DNA of 64,000 nt, from NCBI RefSeq assembly GCF_003970675.1, contig NZ_CP034562.1:5127501-5191500 (forward strand), in the 5' to 3' direction. Source of the stretch: Flammeovirga pectinis (GTDB lineage Bacteria; Bacteroidota; Bacteroidia; Cytophagales; Flammeovirgaceae). Shown here piece after piece: positions 18,330 to 58,095 of this stretch; position 1 is the first letter of the stretch, and each line of letters opens with the position of its first letter. Position numbers and translations under genes: made by a program. Below the pieces are notes generated by a model. It was not told the origin of the DNA, did not search any database, and saw only the letters and a list, made by a program, of their open reading frames with translations.

Positions 18330-18677
18330 ATGAAGAAAAAACTTATAGTATTAGGTGTAATTGTAGGTAGTGTGTATGTATTATTCATGATCATCTTTTA
18401 CTTTTCATTCGAATCAATTCAAGAAACTCCTGCTTACCATCAAGCTCTGAAAGAAATTAAATTAAGTACGTTAATTCATAAAAGAGTTGGTGATATAACG
18501 GGTGTTGATAAATGGGATAGTGAAGGAAAAGTAGAAATAGAAAATAATTCTACAGAAGGAAAAGCCTATTTTGTTATTCCAATACAAGGAGAGAAAGATA
18601 GTGTTCATGTTTCAATTTCATTATTTGAAAATGAACATGGTAATTGGATTGTGGAAAATATGAAAGTATTAGACTAA
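18330..18677 (+). CDS. Coa1/Tim21-like membrane-anchored protein
   Basis: The 115-residue protein has one N-terminal membrane helix (about 5-27) and a small soluble domain with HKRVGDITGVDKW, GKAYFVIPIQGEKDSVHVSI and NWIVENMKVLD. This pattern matches the cytochrome oxidase complex assembly protein 1 (Coa1) domain, known from mitochondria and from many bacteria where its role is not settled. It sits alone between two terminators and directly upstream of the trp leader. A role in respiratory complex assembly is possible but not shown by context. Confidence 0.65.
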   Translation: MKKKLIVLGVIVGSVYVLFMIIFYFSFESIQETPAYHQALKEIKLSTLIHKRVGDITGVDKWDSEGKVEIENNSTEGKAYFVIPIQGEKDSVHVSISLFENEHGNWIVENMKVLD

Positions 18678-18723: not shown

Positions 18724-18754
18724 TTGCGAATTTCATTCTTAATTCCTAGTTTTA
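18724..18754 (+). promoter_or_regulatory. Possible promoter of the trp operon leader
   Basis: TTG at 18724-18726 and TAGTTTTA at 18747-18754 (7 of 8 matches to TAnnTTTG) are 20 bp apart. Transcription would start near 18761, almost at the leader peptide ATG (18762), making the leader nearly leaderless. The mismatch in the last base lowers confidence. Confidence 0.4.
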
Positions 18755-18761
18755 TTGCGAA

Positions 18762-18824
18762 ATGATAAAAACAAAAAAAAATATCGTAAAGTCATGGTGG
18801 TGGCGCTCAGTTTCAACTAATTGA
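18762..18824 (+). CDS. trpL: trp operon leader peptide, 20 residues with three consecutive Trp
   Basis: A 20-codon frame from ATG at 18762 to TGA at 18822-18824 encodes a basic peptide ending KSWWWRSVSTN. Three Trp codons in a row (18795-18803) are extremely unusual by chance and lie directly before the first arm of an attenuator hairpin, 116 bp upstream of trpE. As in known trp leader peptides, ribosome stalling at these codons when charged tRNA-Trp is scarce would decide whether the downstream terminator forms. The peptide itself needs no function. It is far too short for routine gene calling. Confidence 0.88.
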   Translation: MIKTKKNIVKSWWWRSVSTN

Positions 18825-18902
18825 GTGATTGTCCGCGTACAGGCTTTATTTTAAAATATAGATTTTAAAAAGCTCGCTGATTCACTCAGTGGGCTTTTTT
18901 TA
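18804..18902 (+). promoter_or_regulatory. Ribosome-mediated transcription attenuator of the trp operon
   Basis: Three mutually exclusive pairings can be drawn. Arm 1 (18804-18812, CGCTCAGTT) pairs with arm 2 (18819-18827, AATTGAGTG) with two G-U pairs. Arm 2 (18822-18828, TGAGTGA) alternatively pairs perfectly with arm 3 (18882-18888, TCACTCA). Arm 3/4 forms the terminator: 18870-18880 with 18886-18896, 11 bp with two G-U pairs, followed by a T run to about 18902. A ribosome stalled on the Trp codons would cover arm 1, free arm 2 to pair with arm 3 and prevent the terminator; a ribosome reaching the stop codon, which lies inside arm 2, would let the terminator form. This is the classical attenuation logic. 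Confidence 0.88.
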
Positions 18903-18939
18903 TGTTCTAACATTACTATACTAATAGATTTTATAAAAT

Positions 18940-20346
18940 ATGTATCGATTTATCAACACACATGCAGAATTACTTGCAGATACTGTTACTCCAGTAAGTA
19001 TTTATTTAAGGGTAAGAGATAGATTTGCAAATAGCTTATTATTAGAAAGTTCTGATTATCATGGAGCAGACAACAGTTATTCATTTATTTGTTGTGAACC
19101 TGTTGCGGAATTTTCTGTTCACGATAAATTATTAAGAGTTCAATATCCTAATAAAGAAGAAAATAAAAGAGAATTATCTTCTCATGAAGAAGCTCTAACT
19201 GAGTTATCGGTATTTTCTAAATCTTTTGAATATAAGCAGAATGATAATCAAAAATTTGCCTCACATGGCTTATTTGGTTACATGACTTATGATGCAGTTC
19301 AATCTTTTGAAGAAATTGAATTTGATGCTGATAAAGTTGATACTGAAATTCCTCAGATAAGATATCAAGCATTTAGATATGTAATAGCAATTAATCATTT
19401 TAAGAATGAGTTACATATTTTTGAGCATATTCCTGAAGGAGAAAATTCTGAAAGTAAAATTGAAGAGATAAAATCTTTAATAAAGAGTAAAAACTTTCCT
19501 GCCTATCATTTTAAAAGAGAAGGTGAAGAAACTACAAACTTTACTGATTCAGAATTTTTAGAAGTTCTTAAAAAAGGGAAAGACCATTGTTTTAGAGGTG
19601 ATGTTTTTCAGATTGTACTTTCAAGAAGGTATCAACAAGATTTTCAGGGGGATGAGTTTAATGTTTATAGATCACTGCGTTCTATCAACCCATCACCTTA
19701 CTTATTTTATTTTGATTATGGTACATATAAAATCTTTGGCTCATCACCAGAGGCACAAATCATTGTAAAAGATAAACAAGCGACGATACATCCAATTGCA
19801 GGTACTTTTAAACGTACAGGTAATGATAAAAAAGATGCTGAAATAGCTCAACAATTATATGATGATCCGAAAGAAAATTCAGAACATGTAATGCTAGTTG
19901 ATTTAGCTAGAAATGATTTGAGTAGAAACGGGAATAATGTTAAAGTTGAAGTTTTTAAAGAAATTCAATATTACTCTCATTTAATTCACTTAGTATCTAA
20001 AGTAAACGGTCAATTAACAGAAGGGACCGATCCTTTAAGAGTTGTTGCTGATACTTTTCCTGCTGGTACTTTATCAGGTTCTCCAAAATACAAAGCAATG
20101 GAGTTAATTGATAAATACGAAAATGTTCGTCGTAGTTTTTATGGTGGTGCTATTGGTTTTATGAGTTTCGATGGAGATTTTAACCACGCTATAATGATTC
20201 GTTCGTTTTTAAGCTTGGATAATAAGCTTCATTACAGAGCGGGTGCAGGTGTTGTTGCTCAGTCTTCAGAAGAGAGTGAACTACAAGAAGTACACAATAA
20301 ATTGGCTGCTTTGCGTAAAGCATTGGATATGGCCGAAGGACTTTAA
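18940..20346 (+). CDS. trpE: Anthranilate synthase component I
   Basis: TrpE converts chorismate to anthranilate using ammonia supplied by TrpG. The 468-residue product has the chorismate-utilising signatures FGSSPEAQI, HPIAGTFKRTG, MLVDLARNDLSR and PAGTLSGSPKYKAMELID (from about residue 265 to 390). Near the N-terminus the stretch SLLLESSD (about 31-38) matches the LLES element of the tryptophan feedback site, so allosteric inhibition is probably retained. It is the first structural gene after the attenuator and heads the trpEGDC block. Length is typical of trpE without fused trpG. Confidence 0.96.
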   Translation: MYRFINTHAELLADTVTPVSIYLRVRDRFANSLLLESSDYHGADNSYSFICCEPVAEFSVHDKLLRVQYPNKEENKRELSSHEEALTELSVFSKSFEYKQNDNQKFASHGLFGYMTYDAVQSFEEIEFDADKVDTEIPQIRYQAFRYVIAINHFKNELHIFEHIPEGENSESKIEEIKSLIKSKNFPAYHFKREGEETTNFTDSEFLEVLKKGKDHCFRGDVFQIVLSRRYQQDFQGDEFNVYRSLRSINPSPYLFYFDYGTYKIFGSSPEAQIIVKDKQATIHPIAGTFKRTGNDKKDAEIAQQLYDDPKENSEHVMLVDLARNDLSRNGNNVKVEVFKEIQYYSHLIHLVSKVNGQLTEGTDPLRVVADTFPAGTLSGSPKYKAMELIDKYENVRRSFYGGAIGFMSFDGDFNHAIMIRSFLSLDNKLHYRAGAGVVAQSSEESELQEVHNKLAALRKALDMAEGL

Positions 20347-20379: not shown

Positions 20380-20946
20380 ATGAAAATTTTAGTTCTTGAT
20401 AATTACGATTCGTTTGTGTACAACTTGGTACATTACCTAAGAGAATTAGGACAAACTGTTGATATATATAGAAACGATAAAATTACTTTGAAAGAAGTAG
20501 GTAAATACGATAAAATATTACTTTCTCCAGGCCCTGGTATTCCTTCGGAAGCAGGAATAATGCCTGAGTTGTTGAAAACTTATGGAGAGACAAAAAGTAT
20601 TTTAGGGGTATGTTTAGGGCATCAAGCTATTGGAGAAGCATTTGGAGCAACATTAGAGAACAATCATCCTTTACATGGTGTTCAGGATAATGCTCAAGTA
20701 GTAACTCCAGAAGCAAAATTATTTCAAGGTATTCCAAATACTTTTAAAATTGGGCACTATCATTCTTGGGTACTTAAATCTGATAGCTTGGCTGGAACTC
20801 AATTAAAGATTACAGCTCGCGATGAAAATGGGTTTGTAATGGCTGTACAGCATAATAAGTTTGATGTGCAAGGAGTTCAATTTCATCCAGAATCTGTTTT
20901 AACAGAACACGGAATGGACATATTGAAAAATTGGGTACAAGGTTAA
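20380..20946 (+). CDS. trpG: Anthranilate synthase component II (glutamine amidotransferase)
   Basis: The 188-residue class I glutamine amidotransferase supplies ammonia to TrpE. It begins with the family motif LDNYDSFVYNLVHYL, has the oxyanion segment LLSPGPGIPSEAG, the nucleophilic cysteine in GVCLGHQAIGEAFG (about 78-91), and the catalytic His/Glu in VQFHPESVLTEHG (about 167-179). It lies 33 bp after trpE and 16 bp before trpD, so the assignment to tryptophan rather than p-aminobenzoate synthesis is supported, although such subunits may serve both. Confidence 0.95.
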   Translation: MKILVLDNYDSFVYNLVHYLRELGQTVDIYRNDKITLKEVGKYDKILLSPGPGIPSEAGIMPELLKTYGETKSILGVCLGHQAIGEAFGATLENNHPLHGVQDNAQVVTPEAKLFQGIPNTFKIGHYHSWVLKSDSLAGTQLKITARDENGFVMAVQHNKFDVQGVQFHPESVLTEHGMDILKNWVQG

Positions 20947-20962
20947 TCTTATAATAATTACC

Positions 20963-21949
20963 ATGAAAAAGATACTAAACAGACTTTTTGAATACGGGTC
21001 ATTATCTGAACAAGAAGCTAAAGCGACACTAACAAAATTGGCTCAAGGAGATTTTAATCCAAGTCAGATAGCAGCATTTCTTACAGTATACTCTATGCGA
21101 AGTATTACGGTAGAAGAGTTAACAGGATTTAGAGATGCAATGTTAGAATTGTGTTTAAGAATAGATTTAGACGACTTCGACGCAATGGACCTTTGTGGTA
21201 CGGGTGGAGACGGTCAGGATACATTTAATATATCAACATTATCTTCTTTTATTGTTGCCGGAGCAGGTCAAAATGTAGCTAAGCACGGTAATAATGGAGT
21301 ATCTTCTGTATGTGGTTCATCTAATTTGATGGCACACTTTGGGTATGATTTTACAAATGACGTTGATACGTTAAGAAGAAATTTAGAAGAGGCAGGGATA
21401 TGTTTTATTCATGCTCCATTGTTCCATCCAGCAATGAAAAATGTGGCACCAATTCGTAGAGAATTAGGAGTTAAAACGTTTTTTAATATGCTAGGACCTA
21501 TGGTAAATCCATCTTTTCCAAATAAGCAGATTGTAGGTGTATTTAGTTTAGAAATTGCACGTTTGTATGGGTATTTATATCAACAGACAGAGAAAAAATT
21601 TGCAATACTACATTCATTAGATGTATATGACGAAATATCGTTAACATCACCTTTTAAGATTATAACAAAGGAAAGTGAGCGGTTATTAAAACCAGAAGAC
21701 TTAGGATTACATTATCAAACTAAAGAATCTTTATTTGGAGGAGGTACTATTGCAGAATCAGCAAAAATATTTACTGATGTGTTAGAAAATAAAGGTACAC
21801 TTCCTCAGCAAGAAGCTGTTCTAGCAAATGCAGGTGTGGCAATTGCAACAGGTAAAGGTTTAGCCTTTCAAGAAGGTGTAGCTCAAGCAAGAGAATCTTT
21901 AGAATCTGGAGCAGCATTAAATGCATTTAAAAAATTAATTAATTCTTAA
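20963..21949 (+). CDS. trpD: Anthranilate phosphoribosyltransferase
   Basis: TrpD joins anthranilate and PRPP to phosphoribosylanthranilate. The 328-residue product has the N-terminal helical region and the glycine-rich PRPP/anthranilate signature DLCGTGGDGQDTFNIST (about 73-89), followed by AKHGNNGVSSVCGSSN and the RRELGVKTFFNMLGPMVNP region (about 167-185), all diagnostic. It lies between trpG (16 bp) and trpC (15 bp). Length is normal and there is no fusion. Confidence 0.96.
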   Translation: MKKILNRLFEYGSLSEQEAKATLTKLAQGDFNPSQIAAFLTVYSMRSITVEELTGFRDAMLELCLRIDLDDFDAMDLCGTGGDGQDTFNISTLSSFIVAGAGQNVAKHGNNGVSSVCGSSNLMAHFGYDFTNDVDTLRRNLEEAGICFIHAPLFHPAMKNVAPIRRELGVKTFFNMLGPMVNPSFPNKQIVGVFSLEIARLYGYLYQQTEKKFAILHSLDVYDEISLTSPFKIITKESERLLKPEDLGLHYQTKESLFGGGTIAESAKIFTDVLENKGTLPQQEAVLANAGVAIATGKGLAFQEGVAQARESLESGAALNAFKKLINS

Positions 21950-21964
21950 AGAATATCTATTGAT

Positions 21965-22747
21965 ATGACAATTTTAGATAAAATAGTTGCACATAAAAAG
22001 ATTGAAGTAGCAGCAAGAAAAGAAATAGTATCTCTTGCAGACCTTCAAGCTAGACCTTTGTTTGACAAAGAACCTGTATCTGCCAAAGCATGGATTGCTA
22101 GTCCTAATAAATCTGGAATTATTGCTGAGTTTAAAAGACAGTCTCCGTCTAAAGGATTAATTAATGGTACTGCAAAAGTTTCTGATGTAGCAGAAGGCTA
22201 TTTTAAAGCAGGTGTTTCTGCAATGTCTGTTCTTACAGATCAAGAATTTTTTGGAGGAACCGTAGACGATCTATTGGCTGCAAGGTCAGTATCTCCTGTT
22301 CCTATTATTCGTAAAGATTTTATTGTAGATGAATATCAAATTGTTGAGGCAAAATCAATAGGTGCTGATTTTATTCTTTTGATAGCCTCTTGCTTAACAC
22401 CAGAAGAAAGTAAAAAATATGCAGAGGTTGCAAGAAACTTAGGAATGCAAATTTTACTAGAGGTACATAACCAAGAAGAATTAGAAGCTCACGTTTGTGA
22501 TAAAATGGATTTAATTGGGGTAAATAACCGTAATCTTAAAACATTTGAGGTAAGTATTGAAAATTCTAAGATTCTTGCGGAACTAATTCCGAACGAATTC
22601 GTAAAAGTTTCTGAAAGCGGAATTAGTAATATCGAAAATATAAAGGAGCTAAAGAAGTATGGTTATAAGGGCTTTTTAATAGGTGAAAACTTTATGAAGA
22701 CAAATAATCCATCTAAAGCTGCTAAAGAATTTATAAGTCAATTATAA
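21965..22747 (+). CDS. trpC: Indole-3-glycerol phosphate synthase
   Basis: TrpC closes the indole ring by decarboxylating carboxyphenylamino-deoxyribulose phosphate. The 260-residue TIM-barrel protein has GIIAEFKRQSPSKG (about 50-63, catalytic Lys), PIIRKDFIVDEYQI (about 117-130), LLEVHNQEEL, GVNNRNLKTFEV (about 184-195) and the phosphate-binding VSESGISNIENI and GFLIGENFM. It is the last gene of the trpEGDC block; the next trp gene in the same direction, trpF, begins 476 bp downstream after an opposite-strand gene whose stop codon abuts that of trpC. Confidence 0.96.
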   Translation: MTILDKIVAHKKIEVAARKEIVSLADLQARPLFDKEPVSAKAWIASPNKSGIIAEFKRQSPSKGLINGTAKVSDVAEGYFKAGVSAMSVLTDQEFFGGTVDDLLAARSVSPVPIIRKDFIVDEYQIVEAKSIGADFILLIASCLTPEESKKYAEVARNLGMQILLEVHNQEELEAHVCDKMDLIGVNNRNLKTFEVSIENSKILAELIPNEFVKVSESGISNIENIKELKKYGYKGFLIGENFMKTNNPSKAAKEFISQL

Positions 22748-23140
22748 TTAAAATAGACGCTTTTTATTAGCGTGGAATTTGATTCTATTAGATTGAGGAT
22801 AGTAGTCTATTGTTCTATAATAATTGTCTTTAGAGCCTGGAATCAGAAATTTCCCTAATACTTTTATATCATTTAGTTTGATGTAAACTTCAGAAGGGCT
22901 GTTTTCATTTCCATAAACAGTAACTCTTCCAGATTTATGACTTATGTCTATGGAATCAGCTTTTATTTCAATCCCAGGATCAATAAAATAGGCATTTCCT
23001 CTAAGGCAGAGTAATCGTTTATCCTGATTTATAAAAGCACTATCAGCACTATATTCAAGAGATCTTTCTCTATCGTAAAACTGCTGATTACAACCTATAG
23101 ATAAGGTTGCTAATAAAATAAGAGGTATCAATTGTCTCAT
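22748..23140 (-). CDS. LptA/OstA-like putative lipoprotein on the opposite strand within the trp operon
   Basis: The 130-residue product has a lipoprotein signal (LLATLSIGC, Cys at 17). The mature part has alternating short strands such as SLEYSADSAFINQDKRLLCL, ALRGNAYF-like LRGNAYFIDPGIEIKADSI and DISHKSGRVTVYG, which is the pattern of the OstA/LptA-like beta-jellyroll involved in lipopolysaccharide transport. The similarity is from pattern only, so the name is tentative. It lies antisense to the trp operon: its stop codon abuts the trpC stop, and its start is followed by a perfect inverted repeat before trpF. Read-through from trpC into trpF would make RNA antisense to it. Confidence 0.55.
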   Translation of the reverse strand: MRQLIPLILLATLSIGCNQQFYDRERSLEYSADSAFINQDKRLLCLRGNAYFIDPGIEIKADSIDISHKSGRVTVYGNENSPSEVYIKLNDIKVLGKFLIPGSKDNYYRTIDYYPQSNRIKFHANKKRLF

Positions 23141-23223: not shown

Positions 23224-23892
23224 ATGATGAGTAGTATAAAAGATGATGTTTCTATAATTGATTGGAAAGTATGTGGAATGCGTAATCGGGAAAATATTTA
23301 TGATATTTTGAAATTATCTCCTGATTATATGGGTTTTATAATGTACCCACCGTCAAGTAGATTTATAGAAAATGAAGATGTTTCTTTTTTAGAGACAAAG
23401 TGGGACGTTCCAACTAAACGAGTGGGTGTATTTGTAAATGAAGAAATAGAAACAATACTCTCACAAAGTAAGAAATATCATTTTGATACGATACAGTTAC
23501 ATGGAAGCGAAACACCTGAAATATGTAGAATACTTAAAGATGCAGGGTATGAGATTTTTAAAGTCTTTGGTATTAAAGATGAATTCGATTTTTCAACTTT
23601 GAAATCTTACGAACCCTATGTAGATGCATTTTTGTTCGATACTAAAAGTTCAAAACATGGAGGGACAGGAAAAACATTTGATTGGGGAGTTTTAAAACAA
23701 TATTCTTCCACAAAGCCATTTATTTTAAGTGGGGGAGTTTCTTTAAAAAATATAAAAGAGCTTACCATTTTAGATCATTTACCTTTTAAAGGGATAGATG
23801 TAAATAGTAAGTTTGAAATTGAGCCGGCAATGAAAGATATTGCAATGGTTACAGAATTAAGCGATTGGGTGAAATCCATCAACAAAAAATAA
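23224..23892 (+). CDS. trpF: Phosphoribosylanthranilate isomerase
   Basis: TrpF isomerises phosphoribosylanthranilate in the third step of tryptophan synthesis. The 222-residue TIM-barrel protein has the catalytic [10 protein letters not shown] near residues 15-24 (Cys), [27 protein letters not shown], the catalytic Asp region [20 protein letters not shown] (about 139-158) and [12 protein letters not shown]. The start at 23224 gives about ten residues more than the shortest relatives; a start two codons inward cannot be excluded. It is followed by trpB only 8 bp after its stop codon, forming a trpF-trpB pair. Confidence 0.95.
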
Positions 23893-23900
23893 TTAGACAA

Positions 23901-25085
23901 ATGACTTACCAAGAACCAGATCAGAATGGCTATTATGGCCAATTTGGAGGAGCATATATTCCAGAAATGCTTTACCCAAATGTAAAAGAATTAAAGGATA
24001 ATTATGAGGCAATGATTGCCGACCCAAAGTTTAAAGAGGAATTCGATGGATTATTAAAAGACTATGTTGGTCGTCCAACTCCTCTTTATTTCGCAAAGAA
24101 GTTATCTGATAAATATGGTGCAAAGATTTACCTTAAAAGAGAAGATCTTAACCATACAGGAGCACACAAGATAAATAATACAATTGGTCAGATTTTATTG
24201 GCTAAACGTTTAAATAAAAAGAAAATTATTGCAGAAACAGGTGCTGGCCAACATGGTGTGGCTACGGCAACAGTTTGTGCTTTAATGAATATGGAATGTA
24301 TTGTTTACATGGGGGAAATTGACATTGCACGTCAGAAGCCAAATGTTGAACGTATGCGTTTATTAGGTGCTACAGTTATTCCGGCAACTAGTGGTTCTAA
24401 AACATTAAAAGATGCAACCAATGAGGCTATGCGTCATTGGATAAATAACCCATCTGATACACATTATATTATTGGGTCTGTAGTGGGACCTCATCCTTAC
24501 CCAAATATGGTTGCTAAATTCCAATCTGTAATTAGTGAGGAAATGAAATGGCAATTAAAAGAAAAAGAAGGAAAAGAAAATCCTGATTATGTAATTGCTT
24601 GTGTAGGTGGAGGAAGTAATGCAGCAGGTGCATTTTTCCATTATTTAGATGAGTTAGATGTAAATTTAATAGCGGTAGAAGCTGCTGGTTTAGGCGTTGA
24701 ATCTGGTGAGTCTGCAGCAACAACAGCATTAGGAACACCGGGTGTATTGCATGGTAGTAAAACTATTCTAATGCAAACAGAAGACGGACAGGTAGTTGAA
24801 CCTTATTCTATATCTGCTGGTTTAGATTACCCAGGAATTGGACCTATTCATGCTTATTTATATGAGTCTGGAAGGGCACAGTTTAAATATGTTACAGATG
24901 AGGAAGCAATGGAAGCTGGTGTTGAATTGAGTAGATCTGAAGGTATTATTCCTGCAGTAGAATCAGCTCATGCATTTGCAGCTTTAGGTAAAATGGATTT
25001 TAAACCTGAAGATGTAGTTGTTGTAAACTTATCTGGAAGAGGAGATAAAGATTTAGAAACTTATATGAAATACGGTAAGTATTAA
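23901..25085 (+). CDS. trpB: Tryptophan synthase beta subunit
   Basis: TrpB condenses indole and serine to tryptophan with PLP. From ATG at 23901 the product has 394 residues, the usual length, and begins with the family N-terminus ([14 protein letters not shown]). The PLP lysine is in [14 protein letters not shown] (about 78-91), [11 protein letters not shown] follows, the phosphate loop is [12 protein letters not shown] (about 224-235), and [12 protein letters not shown] closes the domain. An upstream in-frame ATG at 23865 overlaps trpF by 28 bp and adds residues absent from relatives, so I prefer 23901. trpA does not follow; a terminator ends the operon. This is the TrpB1 type that normally needs TrpA. 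Confidence 0.95.
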
Positions 25086-57393: not shown

Positions 57394-57465
57394 GCTCCGT
57401 TCGTCTAGGGGTTAGGACGCCAGGTTTTCATCCTGGTAGCACGGGTTCGAATCCCGTACGGAGTA
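57394..57465 (+). tRNA. tRNA-Glu (anticodon TTC), copy 1
   Basis: It folds as a standard cloverleaf: acceptor GCTCCGT with ACGGAGT, anticodon stem CCAGG/CCTGG enclosing ttttcat (anticodon TTC, Glu), and T arm CGGG-ttcgaat-CCCG. Discriminator A; no CCA is encoded. Confidence 0.97.
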
Positions 57466-57498
57466 CATAGTCTAATTGAGACTCAAAATCAATACCCC

Positions 57499-57570
57499 GC
57501 TCCGTTCGTCTAGGGGTTAGGACGCCAGGTTTTCATCCTGGTAGCACGGGTTCGAATCCCGTACGGAGTA
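57499..57570 (+). tRNA. tRNA-Glu (anticodon TTC), copy 2
   Basis: Identical in sequence to copy 1; starts 105 bp later. Confidence 0.97.
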
Positions 57571-57603
57571 CATAGTCTAATTGAGACTCAAAATCAATAC
57601 CCC

Positions 57604-57675
57604 GCTCCGTTCGTCTAGGGGTTAGGACGCCAGGTTTTCATCCTGGTAGCACGGGTTCGAATCCCGTACGGAGTA
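57604..57675 (+). tRNA. tRNA-Glu (anticodon TTC), copy 3
   Basis: Identical in sequence to copy 1. It is preceded and followed by spacers of the catagtc type. Confidence 0.97.
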
Positions 57676-57708
57676 CATAGTCTAATTGAGACTCAAAATC
57701 AATACCCC

Positions 57709-57780
57709 GCTCCGTTCGTCTAGGGGTTAGGACGCCAGGTTTTCATCCTGGTAGCACGGGTTCGAATCCCGTACGGAGTA
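57709..57780 (+). tRNA. tRNA-Glu (anticodon TTC), copy 4
   Basis: Identical in sequence to copy 1. The spacer type changes from catagtc to cacagtc directly after this copy. Confidence 0.97.
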
Positions 57781-57813
57781 CACAGTCTAATTGAGACTCA
57801 AAATCAATACCCC

Positions 57814-57885
57814 GCTCCGTTCGTCTAGGGGTTAGGACGCCAGGTTTTCATCCTGGTAGCACGGGTTCGAATCCCGTACGGAGTA
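57814..57885 (+). tRNA. tRNA-Glu (anticodon TTC), copy 5
   Basis: Identical in sequence to copy 1. The spacer after it carries a single private substitution. Confidence 0.97.
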
Positions 57886-57918
57886 CACAGTCTAATTGAG
57901 ACTTAAAATCAATACCCC

Positions 57919-57990
57919 GCTCCGTTCGTCTAGGGGTTAGGACGCCAGGTTTTCATCCTGGTAGCACGGGTTCGAATCCCGTACGGAGTA
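57919..57990 (+). tRNA. tRNA-Glu (anticodon TTC), copy 6
   Basis: Identical in sequence to copy 1. Confidence 0.97.
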
Positions 57991-58023
57991 CACAGTCTAA
58001 TTGAGACTCAAAATCAATACCCC

Positions 58024-58095
58024 GCTCCGTTCGTCTAGGGGTTAGGACGCCAGGTTTTCATCCTGGTAGCACGGGTTCGAATCCCGTACGGAGTA
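58024..58095 (+). tRNA. tRNA-Glu (anticodon TTC), copy 7
   Basis: Identical in sequence to copy 1. It is the last of the array and is followed within 6 bp by the terminator. Confidence 0.97.

Follow-up and report, generated by a model that had tools for sequence, protein, structure and literature searches.

A predicted ribosome-mediated tryptophan attenuator upstream of trpEGDC in Flammeovirga pectinis and its conservation in the Cytophagales

Leader, pairings and terminator upstream of trpE

Expression of trpEGDC in Flammeovirga pectinis is very probably set by the supply of charged tRNA-Trp, through a ribosome-mediated transcription attenuator located between the upstream gene and trpE. The anatomy of this attenuator, its conservation in relatives, the mutual exclusion of its pairings in constrained folding and a conserved distance from its Trp codons to arm 2 are established here. 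The same interpretation had been put forward in an original prediction made from the letters of the window (the whole 64 000-nucleotide stretch of DNA that was analysed), and it is supported: every element named there is present and conserved. The elements are as follows, in window coordinates.

18762..18824 (+): trp leader peptide ORF of 20 codons, MIKTKKNIVKSWWWRSVSTN; ATG at 18762, stop codon TGA at 18822-18824; WWW leader in 9/9 genus genomes
18795..18803 (+): Trp sensor codons, three TGG in tandem; WWW in 126/149 called leaders versus 0/935 Markov controls
18786..18849 (+): 1:2 hairpin of the MFE structure; core 18804-18812/18819-18827, extension 18800-18803/18833-18836, plus an outer stem
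18820..18847 (+): arm 2, the antiterminator 5' strand in constrained folding; pieces 18820-28, 18831-33, 18835-37 and 18842-47; includes the leader stop codon
18869..18890 (+): antiterminator 3' strand in constrained folding; equals the terminator 5' arm, its loop and the upper part of its 3' arm
18867..18901 (+): intrinsic terminator; 14-bp stem 18867-18880/18886-18899, loop 18881-18885, T tract 18895-18901 (seven T)

The 20-codon frame with three TGG codons at 18795-18803 agrees with the original prediction to the base, and the leader stop codon lies within arm 2 (TGA 18822-18824 in 18820-18847), as had also been claimed. The core of the 1:2 hairpin, formed by arm 1 (18804-18812, CGCTCAGTT) and 18819-18827 (AATTGAGTG), has 9 bp including two G-U pairs, at exactly the coordinates first given. 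Arm 2 starts 16 nt past the last Trp codon. A 7-bp alternative pairing had been placed at 18822-18828/18882-18888; these are exact complements (TGAGTGA/TCACTCA), but the pairing lengthens to 9 bp (18820-18828 with 18882-18890) and the antiterminator as a whole is larger, comprising ∼21 pairs in four helices in constrained folding (18820-28/18882-90, 18831-33/18879-81, 18835-37/18875-77 and 18842-47/18869-74). The entire terminator 5' arm is consumed by the antiterminator in these folds, so that the overlap of terminator and alternative pairing holds and extends over that whole arm. The terminator had been assigned to 18870-18880/18886-18896, which is correct in position but short, as the stem has 14 bp rather than 11. 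Its T tract ends 38 nt before the trpE ATG (18940). The MFE of 18740-18910 is −44.2 kcal/mol (z = −4.08), and none of 200 dinucleotide shuffles was equally stable.

Ribosome-constrained folding

The effect of a translating ribosome was modelled by keeping the bases that it covers single-stranded, with an assumed footprint of 13 nt beyond the A site. With the ribosome absent, the 1:2 hairpin and the terminator of the window locus formed with probabilities of 0.99 and 0.97. A ribosome on the Trp codons gave 0.96-0.97 for the antiterminator and 0.02-0.03 for the terminator, the complete transcript included. With the ribosome on the stop codon, the terminator returned to 0.98 and the antiterminator fell to 0.00, the low antiterminator value being partly a product of how that state is modelled.

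We infer leader translation, stalling, termination and a response to tryptophan at the window locus, in the following scheme. RNA polymerase would start a few bases 5' of the leader ATG and a ribosome would load immediately. When charged tRNA-Trp is scarce, this ribosome would stall at 18795-18803 and cover arm 1, leaving arm 2 (18820-18847) to pair with the terminator 5' arm, the loop and the upper part of the 3' arm, and transcription would continue into trpE. When charged tRNA-Trp is available, the ribosome would proceed to the stop codon, which lies in arm 2, and cover that arm, the terminator would form and transcription would end near 18901. In an untranslated leader, the 1:2 hairpin would sequester arm 2 and the terminator would also form, providing a basal shut-off.

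Conservation of the leader and terminator

Searching the genomes of 58 relatives and 293 genomes of the order gave 107 trpE upstream regions that were read. To these were added 80 named loci, from among others Cyclobacterium, Algoriphagus, Spirosoma, Dyadobacter, Hymenobacter, Pontibacter, Flavobacterium, Salegentibacter, Mucilaginibacter and one Saprospiraceae MAG, making 187 regions in total. Since some of the named loci duplicate others in the set, clustered counts are the safer ones. A leader together with a terminator was complete in 149 of the 187 regions, compared with 9 of 935 first-order Markov controls.

The Trp codons, whose conservation in related genomes had been proposed as a check, are kept. 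The WWW leader is present in all nine genomes of the genus; at one of these loci (L008) the terminator is plainly visible in the sequence though automatic calling missed it. Across the order Cytophagales, 87 of the 107 sampled regions carry a leader, 79 with a called terminator and 8 with WWW but no called terminator. The remaining ∼19% of the sampled regions have no recognisable leader; they come from several families within the order, in a pattern that suggests loss in individual lineages.

At three loci from the window's own family (L012, L024 and L025), the leader has GFWFW(Q/Y)W in place of WWW, with Phe and Tyr codons alternating with Trp. Judged from their codons, such leaders may sense several of the aromatic amino acids.

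Alternative pairing and the distance to arm 2

The second check proposed on related genomes concerned the alternative pairings, and these are preserved while the sequences of the arms change. The arms are complementary at the window locus (TTGAGTGA/TCACTCAG), in Spirosoma-like genomes (GGGATGA/TCATCCC), in Dyadobacter (AGATGGACG/TGTTCATCT) and in Flavobacterium (GTCGTGA/TCACGAC), so that between lineages the arm sequences are wholly different and complementarity is kept. Within the genus no covariation was obtained; the antiterminator core is nearly invariant there.

Equilibrium folding of full-length leaders gave thermodynamic switching in only 10 of 149 cases, since stability usually favours the complete terminator over the antiterminator. 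As the terminator outcompetes the antiterminator at equilibrium in most relatives, the mechanism must be kinetic there. Attenuation in E. coli is likewise believed to be kinetic. Full-length folding was thus dropped as a general test and replaced by partial transcripts with shuffled controls. With a stalled ribosome, the mean pairing between the terminator zone and the upstream arm was 0.78, compared with 0.39 when the intervening sequence was shuffled; with the ribosome on the stop codon it was 0.10, a value partly due to arm 2 being blocked by construction. Antiterminator pairing fell within the top 5% of a locus's own shuffles at 114 of 149 loci and, after clustering at 70% identity, in 37 of 53 clusters (binomial p ∼1e-31).

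In 88% of loci, arm 2 starts 12-22 nt past the last Trp codon (median 17), compared with 20% in shuffles. This is the distance kept free by a ribosome stalled on the Trp codons, and we regard it as the strongest argument for the ribosome as the sensor. With arm 2 held at a fixed, ribosome-sized distance and free in sequence, this set of loci lends itself well to testing the attenuation model by natural variation, in organisms where Shine-Dalgarno sequences are not relied on and the start of translation is less fully understood.

Relation to known attenuators

The original prediction described trp regulation in the Bacteroidota as mostly uncharacterised, which overlooked that trp attenuation has already been proposed there. 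The Rfam family RF01692 (Bacteroid-trp, 'Bacteroidete tryptophan peptide leader RNA') was put forward from comparative genomics by Weinberg et al. 2010 (PMC2864571), Bacteroid-trp has been noted upstream of trp in Flavobacterium psychrophilum (PMC6414381), and transcriptome data from that species suggest leader-peptide attenuation before amino acid operons (PMC9723704). We found little else in the literature on trp or ribosome-mediated attenuation in Bacteroidetes.

The window locus and RF01692 share the phylum, a position upstream of trp genes, a leader with Trp codons and a hairpin that includes these codons. Their terminator 5' arms are related in sequence (AAAAGGCTTGTC in RF01692, AAAAAGCTCGCTGA at the window locus), whereas arm and loop sequences differ. 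The model matches the window over its full length with 27.5 bits (E = 0.3), below its gathering threshold of 49. At the cut-off it recognises 15 of 16 Flavobacteriaceae loci and none of 20 Cytophagales loci, nor any of the 2 Sphingobacteriales, 1 Saprospiraceae and 1 Persicobacter loci (second set). Across 297 genomes sampled from the phylum, 28 matches exceeded the cut-off. One family accounts for 26 of these, and the 12 genomes listed from the window's own order, the window's genome included, gave none. The score of 27.5 bits and the lack of any Cytophagales locus over the cut-off led us to treat the locus as an undescribed extension of Bacteroid-trp: it falls outside RF01692 by threshold, would work like a member and is probably homologous. 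As far as we found, the mechanism is a known one and the lineage and sequence form are undescribed. The predicted regulator of tryptophan synthesis thereby reaches beyond the Flavobacteriaceae into the order Cytophagales, and isolated cases occur in Sphingobacteriales and Saprospiraceae; much of this attenuator diversity is missed by the RF01692 model.

As in the E. coli trp attenuator, tandem Trp codons stand beside arm 1, the stop codon lies at arm 2, the 1:2 hairpin, antiterminator and terminator are mutually exclusive, and the antiterminator takes the terminator 5' arm. The window locus differs in having three Trp codons rather than two and a predicted 5' UTR of ∼3 nt. To our knowledge, no Shine-Dalgarno sequence is to be expected in the Bacteroidota. 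The window scored 23.6 bits against Rfam RF00513 (Trp_leader), below the gathering threshold of 41. Other Rfam matches up to E = 10, such as SpF11_sRNA and Thr_leader, were sub-threshold and accounted for by the terminator; these were set aside.

Alternative explanations

A terminator could equally be used by a protein-controlled attenuator, and the operon might be governed by a TRAP-like, Trp-activated RNA-binding protein or by a DNA-binding Trp repressor, with the leader incidental. TRAP (PF02081) was found in 0/9 genus genomes, in a search that detected the B. subtilis control, and TrpR (PF01371) had no match over the cut-off, with one weak sub-threshold match in one genome. For a protein switch, moreover, Trp codons set apart from arm 2 by a constant interval of ribosome size would be superfluous, and we consider this explanation very unlikely. 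Much the same low probability goes to an untranslated leader that senses uncharged tRNA directly, as a T-box or other such RNA. T-box-type RNAs likewise put a terminator and antiterminator before amino acid operons, but no T-box exceeded the gathering threshold in the window or appeared among the leader matches up to E = 10, and the conserved leader ORF, its Trp codons and the position of its stop codon run contrary to that reading. The region could, finally, hold nothing but an unregulated terminator of an upstream transcript and a chance Trp-rich frame: the gene at 18330-18677 shares the strand and lacks an obvious terminator, and TGGTGGTGG alone is not rare, occurring twice in the window and 136 times genome-wide, for which reason its rarity was dropped as an argument. 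None of 30 other genomic TGGTGGTGG sites checked had a short ATG-started frame followed by a called terminator. Leader and terminator are retained together 5' of trpE across the order although the upstream sequence varies, and among the Markov controls any leader with a terminator arose in 9/935 and one with WWW in none. Conservation thus refutes this explanation for practical purposes, and its probability is close to nil.

A further possibility adds to the attenuator proposed here a trans action of the released leader RNA of ∼140 nt, or of the leader peptide, as is known for Sinorhizobium meliloti trpL (rnTrpL/peTrpL), where the attenuator leader mRNA is leaderless and begins at the ATG (PMC7298713). 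The predicted small RNA, near-leaderless and with a strong terminator, resembles rnTrpL, which starts at the trpL ATG; the phylum and sequence differ, and the leaderless start is observed there and predicted here. Against a trans action, the leader peptide is not conserved in sequence across the order outside the Trp run. We think such an addition improbable, if less so than the other alternatives, and retain ribosome-mediated attenuation in cis as the preferred explanation.

A predicted promoter close to the leader ATG

A sigma-A promoter is predicted immediately upstream of the leader.

18724..18754 (+): predicted sigma-A promoter; −33 TTG 18724-18726, 20-nt spacer, −7 box TAGTTTTA 18747-18754

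A similar site (TTG-N-TAnnTTTG-like) ends 7 nt 5' of the leader ATG in the 8 genus loci listed. Just 5' of the leader, a sigma-A site (TTG, spacer, TAnnTTTG; score at least 6) was found for 116 of 148 leaders, compared with 18% of random positions. The −7 box lies a median of 11 nt from the ATG, with a minimum of 4 nt; among leaders where a box can be recognised, roughly half have it ending 4-10 nt 5' of the ATG. The F. psychrophilum −7 box spans −12 to −5 (PMC9723704), a placement that would put the transcription start at ∼18759 and give the predicted 5' UTR of ∼3 nt at the window locus. With a promoter predicted so close to the ATG, the leader mRNA would be nearly leaderless; in F. psychrophilum leaderless mRNAs make up just 5.5% of transcripts (PMC9723704). 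With a −7 box 4-10 nt from the ATG, the first ribosome may load without a Shine-Dalgarno sequence or a normal 5' UTR.

In Spirosoma-like genomes a tRNA-Pro (CGG) gene adjoins the trp leader on its 5' side (L015:3129-3203 (−), L087:291-365 (+), L169:357-431 (+) and L172:827-901 (+)), and at L029:1155-1231 (+) a tRNA with a CAT anticodon lies directly 5' of the leader. With a tRNA gene directly upstream, the leader may be transcribed from the tRNA promoter in these genomes.

trp genes and neighbouring tRNA genes

The genes downstream of the attenuator are as follows.

18940..20346 (+): trpE, anthranilate synthase component I; PF04715 and PF00425 over the Pfam cut-offs
20380..22747 (+): trpG, trpD and trpC; NCBIfam TIGR00566, TIGR01245 and NF001377 over cut-offs
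22748-23140 (−): convergent ORF between trpC and trpFB, tail to tail with trpC; matches neither Pfam nor NCBIfam
23224..25085 (+): trpF and trpB; PF00697 (trpF), TIGR00263 over cut-off (trpB)

The best NCBIfam model for trpE was trpE_most, with a score under its curated cut-off. trpA lies apart from the trp genes of the window, at G000:C1:112291, and the ORFs listed upstream of it include no Trp-rich leader ORF that we could see. The attenuator may or may not also control trpF, trpB and trpA.

Xanthocytophaga flavus and a relative carry a tRNA-Trp (CCA) gene between the attenuator terminator and trpE (L018:1373-1446 (+), L161:1070-1143 (+) and L017:2953-3026 (−)). It is a second copy, with 74% identity to the genome's other tRNA-Trp, which lies near tRNA-Thr. 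The Xanthocytophaga attenuator would thus govern a gene for the same molecule whose charging it senses. We can envisage, while leaning slightly against it, an ancestral, phylum-wide Bacteroidota trp attenuator on a leaderless or nearly leaderless mRNA that in one genus also controls a diverged second tRNA-Trp gene.

Elsewhere in the window, 57394-58095 (+) holds seven near-identical tandem tRNA genes, spaced by exactly 105 bases and of equal Rfam score.
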